NCBI GenBank assembly: GCA_028278605.1
Contig: JANQEB010000140.1
Location: 1-36,074, forward strand
Source: Candidatus Gastranaerophilales bacterium
GTDB taxonomy: Bacteria; Cyanobacteriota; Vampirovibrionia; Gastranaerophilales; UBA9971
Direction of reading: 5' to 3'
DNA: 36,074 bases
Position numbers and translations under genes: made by a program. This document shows, piece after piece, positions 6,001 through 30,968 of this stretch. How positions within the stretch are numbered: the first letter of the stretch is position 1; every line of letters starts with the position of its first letter. The notes beneath the pieces were generated by a model. That model did no database searches and was not told the origin of the DNA. It saw nothing but the letters and a program-made list of their open reading frames with translations.

Positions 6001-6930
6001 ATGCTTAGAGTAGTAGTTTTAGGATATGGTGAACTTGCCCAGTCTGTTGTTTTGGGGATTTTGCAGACAAAACATAAACTCGCAGGCATTATGAGGTGGC
6101 GTCATTCAAAAACTAACAGGCTGGCATCATTCTTGCAGGATACTTTTGCCCCTGACCACTTACTTTCAATAATCAGGTCTCAGGACTTAAAGGAAATTAA
6201 AGCAGTAAGGGCAAATACCGGTAAGTTTACAGACCAAATGAAAAAGCTCAGGCCCGATGTGATAATTGTTGCTTCCTGGGGTGAAATCCTGAAAAGCGAA
6301 GCTATAGACCTGCCTAAAGTGGCCTGTATCAACTGTCATCCCTCTTTACTCCCAAAACACAGGGGCAGCAATCCGTATGCTTCCGCTATAAGACAGGGTG
6401 AAACCAAAACAGGGGTTACTTTTCATCTTATGAATGAAAAAATAGATGCCGGAGATATTCTATTGCAGTCAGAAGTTGAAATTTCCGAAATTGATACAGG
6501 AGAAACCCTTAAAAGAAAGTGTGCTTTTACGGCAAAGGAAGCTGTAAAAATCCTTCTTGACAGGCTTGAAAGAGCAGAGGCGGTTCCTGTAGCCCAGGAC
6601 GAATCTAAAGCCAGTTATTTTCCCGCTATATCAGCTGATGATGCCTATATTAACTGGGAAAACCCGGCTGAGTCCATACATAATCAGGTCAGGGGGCTGC
6701 ATCCGTGGGTTCAGTGCTATACCCGGTATAAAAACGGCTTTTTATTCGCAAAATCATCTGAAGTCGTAAAGCTTGATAAACCAGCAGGCAAGCACGGGGT
6801 TTTAATAGAAAAGAGTGAAAATGAGCTTGTTATATCAACTGCCAGCCCTGATAAAGCTATCAGGCTTAAAGGTGTTGAACCTTACAGCTTTTTTTATGAA
6901 CTCAGGCGCTGGCTTGGGCTAACAAGGTAA
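6001..6930 (+). CDS. Formyltransferase (methionyl-tRNA formyltransferase-like / formyl_trans_N family)
   Basis: CINCHPSLLPKHRGSNPYASAIRQGETKTGVTFHLMNEKIDAGDILLQ; HxSLLPxxRG and D-A-G-D motifs. Specific substrate not assigned. Confidence 0.8.
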   Translation: MLRVVVLGYGELAQSVVLGILQTKHKLAGIMRWRHSKTNRLASFLQDTFAPDHLLSIIRSQDLKEIKAVRANTGKFTDQMKKLRPDVIIVASWGEILKSEAIDLPKVACINCHPSLLPKHRGSNPYASAIRQGETKTGVTFHLMNEKIDAGDILLQSEVEISEIDTGETLKRKCAFTAKEAVKILLDRLERAEAVPVAQDESKASYFPAISADDAYINWENPAESIHNQVRGLHPWVQCYTRYKNGFLFAKSSEVVKLDKPAGKHGVLIEKSENELVISTASPDKAIRLKGVEPYSFFYELRRWLGLTR

Positions 6931-6931
6931 G

Positions 6932-7723
6932 TTATCCCGCGGTTTTTTCAGGCAAAGACCGGATTAGCAGTATTCGCTCAAGTATTAAAATTACCAGCAA
7001 TGAATAAAGCCCGGCAAGTATAACATCGCTTAAAAAGTGCGCACCGGTTGCTACCCGCATAATTGCAACTGACGCCGCAAAAAGCGTTATCACCCAAAAC
7101 CAAATTTTCCTGTGTTTTCCGGCAAGTAAAGCCAGGGATAAAAAGCAAACGGCAAGTGAAGTTTCCCCGGATACAAATGAGCAATTCCCCCGGCACTGGT
7201 CTGAAATTACACCTGCAGCGGTAAATTGCTTTGTACCGTGGAATTCCATGATATCTCTTGGTCTTGCCCTGCCCCAGTGGCTTTTCAGTATAAAACCCGT
7301 CATAAAACCTGCTGCAATAGCAAAAGAAAGAATAATGAAAAAAAATCTTCTCCTGGTTAAAGTCCAGACGGGTTTTTTGTGAAATTCCCCGACTATATAA
7401 GCTAAACTAATTATAATAAGAGAAAAACCCATCATAAGCACAAGGATTTTATGGTAAAAATAGTTAACAGGCGAACCTGCCATTAAAAACTTCCCGTCTC
7501 CCATGTAGAACAATTTTGTAAATTCTATATCTACATTTGGAAAGAAGTAAAAAAACGCTGTTAACACAACGCAAAGAATACCTGTGATTATGATTGCTGG
7601 TTTGTTAGACAGAAAATCCGTTTTGCCGGGAAGATTTTTTCGGTTTTTCTCTATATCACCCGGCCCATCCAGGAAATTTTTTGCTTTTTCATTAAAAATT
7701 ATATTTTTCATCAAAAACCTCAT
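6932..7723 (-). CDS. PAP2 superfamily phosphatase, membrane-bound
   Basis: KSHWGRARPRD ... CSFVSGETSL ... ATGAHFLSDVILAG match the three PAP2 signature blocks. Confidence 0.85.
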   Translation of the reverse strand: MRFLMKNIIFNEKAKNFLDGPGDIEKNRKNLPGKTDFLSNKPAIIITGILCVVLTAFFYFFPNVDIEFTKLFYMGDGKFLMAGSPVNYFYHKILVLMMGFSLIIISLAYIVGEFHKKPVWTLTRRRFFFIILSFAIAAGFMTGFILKSHWGRARPRDIMEFHGTKQFTAAGVISDQCRGNCSFVSGETSLAVCFLSLALLAGKHRKIWFWVITLFAASVAIMRVATGAHFLSDVILAGLYSLLVILILERILLIRSLPEKTAG

Positions 7724-12452: not shown

Positions 12453-14786
12453 TTATTGTTGTGATGCAAATGCAACTGAAAGTATTTCATCAGGGTTAAT
12501 CTGAGCAACTCTTGAGCCGTCAGGCTTAACAACGTAAGCAATTTCATCACCTGATACTTTAAGTATACCAACAGTACCGCTAAGCGCTGTCCTGGCTGTA
12601 TCGAATACTCCAACGAACGGGTCTGTAAGCGCCATTAAGTAGCTTCTTCCTGCTGCCGGGATTTCTCCGTTGAATAATTCGTTTGTACCGTTACCAATGT
12701 TACACAGGAAGTTTTCAACTGTGTTACCGGCGATAATAGCTGCTCCACCAGCGGTTCTGCCTGCAACACCGGCGACTTTACCGGGCCAGCTGAATGGCCA
12801 TGCCAGGAACCTGCCGATGATGTTAGGATTATCTTCCTGAACAACTGTTGCAGAAAGGATTTCTCTAGGAAGGGTAGTTTTGCAGCCGTCGTTTCCCATA
12901 GAAGTAAATTCTACCCTGATAGCTCCGGACTGGCCTATTCCTGGTCTTACGACTTCGGAGACTTTACCTCTTACTACTGTTCCTGCCGGGTAGAAAACGC
13001 CGTCCATATTTACAGGTTCTGTTGTTTTCGCAACAATTCTATCGCCAACTTCACTGGTTCTGGCTGAAACTATATCTTCAAACTGCATTTTAAGAGTTGG
13101 TATAGTTGTTGTTACGACCTGCGGCTGTAACTGGGCTGCCGCGCCTGTTGGTTGCGGGCATGGCGCAAGAGCCAGTACTTCTCTTAATTCATCGACCATT
13201 GAAGCAACTTCTGACCTTGAAGCAATATCATTAGGCCTTATACAATTACCGTCAGGAAGATCACAAAGGATTCCCGCCTTAAGTGATTCTGCCACATGTG
13301 ATGCAGCCCAGGCTGGTATCTGGTTAGAATCAGGGTAACAGCTAAGGATTTGTTGTGCTTCACAGGCTGAAATCTCGCCGGGAATTGCCTTGGCTATGCT
13401 GCTTAATGCTTCAGCTCTTGTTACAGGGTCTTTAGGCCTGAACATACAGTTTGGATAGCCTTCCATTACTCCGCTGTTGTAAGCTTTGTCAATATCAGCA
13501 TTTGCCCAGTGGCTTAAAGGTACATCATTGAATATTTGCTGCTGGAAGTCGGGAGTTCCCTCAAGAGCTGCGCCTGCTACGATTGCGCTTGCAAACTCAT
13601 CTCTGAGAATAGCAAGGTTTGGCTTGTAAGTCCTGTCAGGATAGCCTGCAAGAACTCCTTGAGCTGCGAGTTTATTAATATCGCACCCTGAAATCATCTG
13701 GTTGCTTACGTCAGGGAACTGAGGGCCTACCGGGCAGGCTGCTCCTGTAGATTGAGGAATAATCACAGGAACAAGAGCAGTTCTCTGGATTTGAAGACCG
13801 CTTGATGTCTGGATTGTTCTTGGGCAACCGCTTAATTGTGAACCTATACCTGTTGCGCAAGGATCACATGGGTTACATGGGTTCATTGCCATTGGAACCG
13901 CCGGAGCGCATGGATTACATGGGTTTGCCATAGGCTGGCATGGGTTGCAGGGATCACATGGATTTACCGGGCAAGCCGCGCCTGTCGGGAATGGATAAAT
14001 AGGTGCCGCTGCTCCCATTGGTGAGCATGGGTTACATGGGTCGTATGGATATAATGGAACCGCTGCGCCTGTTGGGCATAACGGAGCGCATGGGTTGCAG
14101 GGATCACATGGGTTTACCGGACAAGCCGCGCCTGTTGGGTACATTGGCATTGCAGCGCCTGTCATACAAGGATCACAATATGCTGATTGCAGAACTCTTG
14201 TTGTTCCGGGGATGCTACACCTTAAAATTTCAAGGCCTTGTGCAACCTGTACCGGGCATACAGGACCGCAAGCCCCGCCTGCCTGTCTTGTAGGCATAAG
14301 TGTAAGGGCCCCGGCCTGTGGAACAGCGGAAATACCTGCGCAGTTCGTTGAATTTACAGCTACAGCTTCTTCGTCTCCGCCAATTTGTACCATCTGGCTG
14401 CCTTTTGGAATAACAACGCTTGAGCTTCCGATATCCGGGAATGCATATGCCTGTCTTTTGATAATTTTTGCGTTAGGAGCACAGTTTGGAATTACTCCTG
14501 TAATAGGTTCGCAAACCGGAGCTGCTCCGCCCGGGCATTGGGGTTGTGATAATAATGGTGAGTACACTTCCTGCGGAAGTCCTGCCTGGGGCAGTAAAAT
14601 TGGGACTGCCGCGCCTGTTGGGCATGGGCATGGTTCTACAGGACATGGCGCAGGACATGGCATTTGTACTCTTGGCGGCGGGCAAACAGGTGCTGCTGCG
14701 CCGACCTGATCAGCACGTGCAATACCGCCTAATGTCATGATTCCTATTGACAATGCGGCTGCTACTGATAATTTTTTCAAGTTCAT
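12453..14786 (-). CDS. Exported Cys/Pro-rich protein with SLH-type repeats (S-layer/envelope)
   Basis: Start set at M7 of the listed ORF ([25 protein letters not shown] signal peptide; TAAGGAGGTT SD at 14791-14800). SLH-like segments, e.g. [43 protein letters not shown]. Confidence 0.9.
13855..14140 (-). repeat. Cys/Pro-rich low-complexity coding repeats
   Basis: [59 protein letters not shown]...; recurring GGATCACATGGGTT-type DNA units on the + strand. Confidence 0.85.
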
Positions 14787-15199
14787 AAAAAACCTCCTTA
14801 ACATCTACAACTAATAAAGAAGTATTAACTTCATGGAATCTAAGTCTTTGCGATTGGATTTTTTCCTATAATTTTCCTCCAATTTCTTGATTAAACAGGT
14901 AACTTTTACATGTGCAAAAAATTTCTCCTCCTTACATAGAATTATTAAACTTTAGTGCTCATATATTCATTACCGGATCTTCTTATTCTTTAAGATAGTT
15001 ATCGGGTAATCTTTTAGCTTTTATTGCTAGTAGTAAAAGACTAGAAATTTTTGCTTTTGTAATTAGTTATAAATTTTTTATAAATTTTAAAAAGTTTTAA
15101 TGTTTTACGTAATTAGCTATCAAGGTTAAATAATTGATCTACCCATGGGTTATCTGATAGTATTAGATAGATTTTGTAGAGTTATTTACAGGAATTGCA

Positions 15200-15493
15200 G
15201 TGTTTGAAATTTTTTTAACTAATTCAGCAAATAAATCCCAGAAAAAACTGGATAAAGCTCTCAGGGTCAAGATTAAAGAATCTATTGAACAAATATCAAA
15301 GGACCCGGAAAATTCCGGGGAAAAGCTTGTTTCTCCGCTTTCTAACGTGTATTCCCGCCATATAAAATACAAAGGCAAGGAAGTGCGGATTGCATACGGA
15401 ATTGACCCTGAGCAAAACACTATTTTTATTTACTTAATTGCTTTTCATGAAAATTTTTATAAAAGGCTTAAAAATATACTGGATGCGGGTTAA
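15200..15493 (+). CDS. RelE/ParE-superfamily toxin-like protein
   Basis: GTG start; LDKALRVKIKESIEQISKDPENSGEKLVSPLSNVYSRHIKYKGKEVRIAYGIDPEQNTIFIYLIAFHENFYKRLKN. Confidence 0.75.
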   Translation: MFEIFLTNSANKSQKKLDKALRVKIKESIEQISKDPENSGEKLVSPLSNVYSRHIKYKGKEVRIAYGIDPEQNTIFIYLIAFHENFYKRLKNILDAG

Positions 15494-15501
15494 ACAACCT
15501 C

Positions 15502-15697
15502 AATGACGGGTTAGTTATTTTTAAAAATTCCTTAAAATTTATAGAAAATAGGCGCGCGGCTCTGCGTTAGCGGGAGCATAGCCTCATTCATGCAGCCGCG
15601 CGCCCTCCTCTGGGGTAGGCTTGGAGGAAATGAGCTAAGCAAGGGCGTTTTAAGGAATTTTTATCAAGCTATAATTGTTTTTAGCTAACCCGTCATT
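15502..15697. repeat. Nested inverted-repeat element, ~196 bp (MITE-like and/or structured RNA)
   Basis: Outermost AATGACGGGTTAG / CTAACCCGTCATT (13 bp perfect), middle AAAAATTCCTTAAAA / TTTTAAGGAATTTTT (15 bp perfect), inner GGCGCGCGGCT / AGCCGCGCGCC (11 bp perfect). Confidence 0.9.
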
Positions 15698-15767
15698 CGA
15701 GTTAAATGGCCATGCTTTTTGTTATAATAAATCTACAATTCAGAGCAGTAAAAAAGATGAGGTTTTT

Positions 15768-29422: not shown

Positions 29423-29536
29423 TTTTATTACCTTTCTTTGTATTTTTTTAGATCGTCATTCTGAGCTTTTTACACGTCATTCTGAGCGAAGCGAAGAATC
29501 TCAATCCTTTTATCAATAGGCCCTTCAGGGTAACGA

Positions 29537-30826: not shown

Positions 30827-30968
30827 GTAACTACTCAGGTACCTGTACTGCAAAAATTTTTCAAAATCGCCCGCCACGCCCTCCCTGATTGAGGTTAAAG
30901 GACTTCGCCCTTTAACAATTCTATATAGATTTTGAAAAATTTTTAATTTCATAGGCCTGAGCAGTTAC
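30827..30968. repeat. Nested inverted-repeat element (MITE-like), 142 bp
   Basis: Arms 30827-30868 and 30928-30968 (GTAACTACTCAGG..AAAAATTTTTCAAAATC / GATTTTGAAAAATTTTT..CCTGAGCAGTTAC); inner GTTAAAGG / CCTTTAAC hairpin. Confidence 0.85.

Follow-up and report, generated by a model that had tools for sequence, protein, structure and literature searches.

Insertion sequences of the IS982 family characteristically have ends that begin with AC and direct repeats that vary in length (PMC7335449), and an IS982-derived MITE, MITECca01/ISCca4, is known from Cardinium, where it is ascribed to a parental element of this family (PMC9769881). Among other short palindromic repeats, those of Streptococcus pneumoniae (RUP, BOX and SPRITE) have been reported to insert into each other (PMC10969869, PMC2229807), and inversion has been reported for the Correia (NEMIS) elements of Neisseria (PMC10969869). 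Searches of the literature brought up no account of elements of this kind from Gastranaerophilales or Melainabacteria. The element described here lies in a stretch of 36,074 nucleotides from a Candidatus Gastranaerophilales bacterium, referred to below as the window. We interpret it as a copy of a genus-specific, nested palindromic MITE, most likely of the IS982 type, and put the probability of this reading at about 0.8.

A palindromic family restricted to one genus

The window copy is a non-coding element of 206 bp (15497-15702), placed between a gene for a ParE-like toxin (PF15781) and a gene for an M24 aminopeptidase (PF00557), in agreement with the toxin and aminopeptidase neighbours named in the original prediction (Table 1). 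All the repeats which that prediction described, three concentric inverted repeats and a CCTCC/GGAGG pair, are present where it had put them. The outer 13-bp pair (15502-15514/15685-15697) is perfect and the inner pair (15551-15561/15594-15604) has 11 bp; the middle pair, reported as 15 bp, belongs to a longer perfect 16-bp pair (15522-15537/15648-15663). The extent was also set too short, at 15502-15697, the true termini being 5 nt beyond each of these positions. The element is short (<300 bp), non-coding and carries TIRs, as MITEs do. The toxin reading frame ends at 15493, and the left target site includes the TAA stop codon of the toxin (15491-15493). Upstream of the toxin and divergent from it in direction, positions 12453-14804 encode a 783-aa S-layer-homology protein whose repeats are rich in Pro and Cys (NPCDPCNPC).

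Table 1. Features of the window copy and of a second element in the same window
Feature	Positions	Strand	Basis
Left target-site sequence TAAACA, decayed TANNTA copy	15491-15496	.	Register set by 22 complete copies
Left outer arm (short arm), starts with TIR ACCTCAATGACGGGTTAG	15497-15523	+	TIR consensus ACCCCAATGACGGGTTAGC at both ends; arm homology
Inner palindromic module M1, bounded by AAAATTCCTTAAAA / TTTTAAGGAATTTT	15524-15661	+	Inverted with respect to the arms relative to 21/24 sampled junctions
GC-rich hairpin 1, stem GGCGCGCGGCT / AGCCGCGCGCC	15551-15604	+	
Loop module X (CTGCGTTAGCGGGAGCATAGCCTCATTCATGC)	15562-15593	+	Missing or inverted in some other copies (such as L028 and L014); elsewhere positioned in M2 copies
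Hairpin 2, CCTCC / GGAGG (15604-15608/15623-15627)	15604-15627	+	
Right outer arm (long arm), ends with TIR CTAACCCGTCATTCGAGT	15662-15702	+	Arm homology; TIR consensus
Right target-site sequence TAAATG, 4/6 match to the left one	15703-15708	.	Register from complete copies
Second element, M2-type inner palindrome (30853-30943) in other outer ends GTAACTACTCAGG / CCTGAGCAGTTAC	30827-30960	-	

BLAST of the element against its own 2.6-Mb genome returned 89 matches at no fewer than about 40 places, a lower bound, since scoring covered 40 of the 255 candidates. For the outer end AATGACGGGTTAG there are 70 exact matches in this genome; two congeners have 46 and 42, and 27 further genomes of the order have one between them. 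With one mismatch or less the same end gives 116 matches versus 1 for the reversed control. All these copy numbers are minimum values. The material consists of draft MAG assemblies with contigs that often end in copies. When 84,980 species were scanned for the exact core pattern, matches came from two MAGs only, PL23a_bin.35 and PL24a_bin.9, both Candidatus Gastranaerophilales. Outside the genus there is one clear diverged relative (L051 in genome G004, from another genus of the same family) and, elsewhere in the order, a few short AT-rich matches, of which L052 and L193 were dismissed as chance matches. Two scans of viral_contigs gave 0 and 1 match; the single one (L194) looks like a chance match that lies in other sequence and has no visible inverted partner.

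Arm ends fall within reading frames of at least 100 aa in 2 of 82 cases, while such frames make up 55% of the same loci. The copies are dispersed and mainly intergenic, as is typical of MITEs. The family is thus a high-copy, genus-restricted (three species), intergenic palindromic element. A lack of other copies in related genomes, combined with a lack of a transcript and of covarying pairs, had been named as something that would speak against the original prediction; many copies with conserved termini exist in the same genome and in relatives, so the MITE proposal survives this test. The family is probably one of the causes of assembly fragmentation, because many contigs end within a copy.

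Ends, target site and candidate transposase

Alignment of the 22 complete copies, i.e. those with both ends and flanks, on AATGACGGG gives the terminus consensus ACCCCAATGACGGGTTAGC, flanked in a fixed register by a 6-bp TANNTA duplication. TANNTA is identical on both sides in 11 of these copies (4.2 expected, p about 1e-4), and the central NN of TTANNTAA in 14 (5.4 expected). Position by position, the central bases alone are clearly correlated beyond base composition, and the correlation drops at the predicted ends. Since the last A and the first T are assigned to the element, its true end is ACCCCAATGACGGGTTAGC, which sets the extent of the window copy given above. The ends start with AC: A takes position 1 in 22/22 and 21/22, and C takes position 2 in 20/22 and 21/22. 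TA of the RUP or Correia kind does not stand at the outer termini, where the duplication is TANNTA.

The identical duplications are unevenly spread between the inner modules described below, being found in 1 of 9 copies with M1 and in 9 of 12 with M2. It was correctly noted in the original prediction that the window copy shows no clear target-site duplication: TAAACA faces TAAATG, the decayed remnant of a duplication that the family does have. A clean empty site for the window copy was not found, and the congeners G001 and G002 have a different gene order upstream of the peptidase. The window copy looks old because its target duplication has decayed and it has no coding capacity.

A candidate for the mobilising enzyme comes from a related genus (G003), which encodes a full-length DDE_Tnp_1 protein of 260 aa. 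Its best NCBIfam match is IS982 (NF033520, E 9e-31), at a score of 107 bits that is below the curated cut-off of 130. The IS is bounded by ACTCGAATTGC... and ...GCAATTCGAGT (that is, A followed by CTCGAATTGCTAAATAG... and ...CTAGCAATTCGAG followed by T), and TAGTTA stands immediately outside either end. The termini of IS982-like elements of related genera start with ACTYGAATTGC and have the same 6-bp TANNTA duplication. A second IS copy, in G006 (L172 1466-2360, G006:C33), has the halves of its transposase in opposite orientation, intact ends and TAAATA on both sides. The genome of the window itself holds IS982-like fragments and partial reading frames only, and one such fragment directly adjoins a MITE with ATCTGAATCACG ends. 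At another locus (L191, G000:C189, near 6849-6932) the end of an IS982-like gene (GCAGTTCAGG) is fused to a type A element that is missing its first bases, which is either a chimeric junction or a mis-assembly.

Some copies of the M1 core (L038, L050, L051) have outer ends that are the same, or almost the same, as those of the G003-type IS, which ties the window family to an IS982-type system. Terminal identity between the window family and IS982-like IS is limited to about ACYYGAAT, plus the duplication, and no autonomous IS was found whose ends are exactly AATGACGGG. Other transposases were considered as movers and rejected. The flanks of IS630/Tc1 (PF13358) copies in the genus are without these ends, matching ends are absent for ISL3 (PF01610), IS1595 (PF12762) gave a single chance end-like match that was wrongly placed, and IS256 (PF00872) was found in none of five genomes.

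Inner modules and their orientation

The modules M1 (AAAATTCCTTAAAA...), M2 (AATTTTTCAAAAATC...) and M3 can be aligned, with linker, hairpin 1 and hairpin 2 in one common order. Outer ends of at least four kinds, represented by AATGACGGG, ACTCGAATTGC, CTGAATCACG and GTAACTACTCAGG, enclose homologous M modules in either orientation. Copies differ in the 32-base loop module X, which some have and others lack, and which can also be duplicated or inverted.

The two outer arms are unequal in length, so the orientation of M can be read. At the long arm (24 junctions) we found the TTTATA side of M1 in 21 cases, the C-rich side in 2 (the window copy and L060) and neither in 1. At the short arm (13 junctions) it is the C-rich side in 12 cases, and TTTATA in the window copy only. 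M2 is less uniform, with its short-arm junctions split 11 versus 4. Both window junctions are opposite to the majority, and M1 of the window copy is therefore inverted between the inverted repeats of its own element. In one outer element that has no M (L111/L092), the left arm is joined to the right arm by TA and nothing else; this join fits an insertion of M1 at TA, but with a single case a deletion is also possible.

Several related arrangements were seen in passing. An M-free relative of the second window element adjoins an A-type element in L090 (about 527-585). In L034, L053, L059, L084, L097 and L110 the loop modules start with (AT)GAATGAG and end with CTCCCGCTTCGC, with variable hairpins between and differing hairpin positions; they are possibly a separate small mobile unit. 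High-copy palindromic repeats of another type, CGTCATCCTGAGC...GGATCTCA, are inserted in family copies L098, L106, L116, L120, L122 and L126-L128, and part of a repeat sequence of this type is also present in the window (29445-29487).

From the sequence comparisons we infer that the element has been mobile. An IS982-family transposase would recognise the AC-started ends of the unit, which would be excised or copied and then inserted at a TANNTA site with duplication of six bases; insertion of the window copy would have put the toxin TAA stop codon within the target site. The ends enclose an interchangeable palindromic module, here M1 with its two GC-rich hairpins, and M1 has been inverted between the flanking 16-bp inverted repeats, most likely via a hairpin/cruciform or a template-switch event.

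Alternative explanations and comparison with known systems

The inverted-repeat structure is far beyond chance. Folded as RNA, the element reaches -87.8 kcal/mol versus -55.1 +/- 4.6 for dinucleotide shuffles (z -7.1, 0/200); folded as DNA it has a z of -6.7, and the minus strand one of -5.4. A fold this stable, in an element that begins at the toxin stop codon, could belong to a functional structured RNA or mRNA 3' element under selection, whose hairpins stabilise, terminate or attenuate the toxin transcript, and stems compared across subfamilies are indeed 92% paired versus 84% in shuffles. But both strands fold, copies adjoin many unrelated genes, and a terminator scan gave no terminator-like site within the element. 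Rfam, run on the whole window at the gathering threshold, reported a tRNA only and nothing at the element; the original prediction had seen no signature motifs of RNase P, tmRNA, SRP or 6S. As for the covarying pairs which that prediction suggested looking for, within the M1 subfamily 0 base pairs have a change on both sides, and the differences between M1 and M2 come from few independent events and may be single events. Pairs were counted here in hand-set columns instead of the combined RNAalifold alignment of M1, M2 and M3, which was gap-dominated with almost no structure. As double changes within M1 are absent, conservation of a functional RNA is not established, and a palindromic MITE would look alike. 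Of the two options initially offered, MITE or structured RNA, the first is borne out by copies, termini, target-site duplication and an IS of matching end type, and the second has no independent support; we consider it quite improbable, although a MITE can secondarily acquire an effect on a transcript. High copy number, intergenic hairpin palindromes and small module X hairpins at variable positions are also reminiscent of REP/BIME-like palindromes that owe their spread to a Y1 (IS200/IS605-type) transposase working on single-stranded hairpins. This origin is barely credible for the window family: REP/BIME elements lack a target-site duplication, while a 6-bp duplication and defined TIRs are present here, a combination expected from DDE transposition and not from Y1 elements.

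As for the layering, independent nested insertions, with a TA-targeting M entering an IS982-type MITE and X inserted in the M loop, can be proposed tentatively in place of a single element of conserved inner design, and the variety of outer-end types that contain M, together with the L111/L092 sequence, speaks for them. The common internal order of M1, M2 and M3, on the other hand, speaks against such insertions, as does the fact that M is rarely found without outer arms; the lone M-free copy may be a deletion, and the M-free type D copy (L090) does not fit TA excision. A more far-reaching reading, which we regard as rather unlikely, makes M1, M2 and M3 independent or exchangeable mobile or invertible cassettes, able to settle in the middle of other elements with inverted repeats. 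If true, it would mean a multi-level system of mobile palindromes, and flipping at each level would be a genome-wide orientation switch. Repeats longer than the assembler k-mer might also be mis-joined and so produce apparent flips and mosaics. Many copies do lie at contig ends, contigs of the named relatives carry a k99 label, and the mismatched duplications of M1 copies point the same way. We consider such an artefact very unlikely: the family, its ends and its target-site duplication recur in three genomes and in copies deep inside contigs, and the duplications match across M2 copies of 149-223 bp, so joining was correct there. A contribution of mis-assembly to the observed patterns is possible.

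Taken as an IS982-type MITE, the family adds this class of element to Gastranaerophilales/Melainabacteria, and flippable inner palindromes common to several outer elements offer a natural data set on the gain, inversion and loss of palindromes in bacteria. With the IS982 family in general it shares AC-started ends, direct repeats and, in relatives, the NF033520 match; unlike a member of that family, the window element has no transposase. MITECca01 is a close counterpart, being likewise small and non-coding with IS982-type ends. It has an intact parent with near-identical ends, whereas for the window family only a related IS with other subterminal bases was found; a further difference is the interchangeable nested palindrome that forms the interior of the window family. 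RUP, BOX and SPRITE resemble the family as short intergenic palindromic repeats, RUP being mobilised by an IS. However, RUP inserts at TA (IS630) and the window family duplicates 6-bp TANNTA, and in contrast to all three its homologous inner palindromes recur in several outer-end types. Correia elements are also short palindromic MITEs that adjoin genes; they differ in their TA-type termini, and we know of no nested exchangeable core in them.
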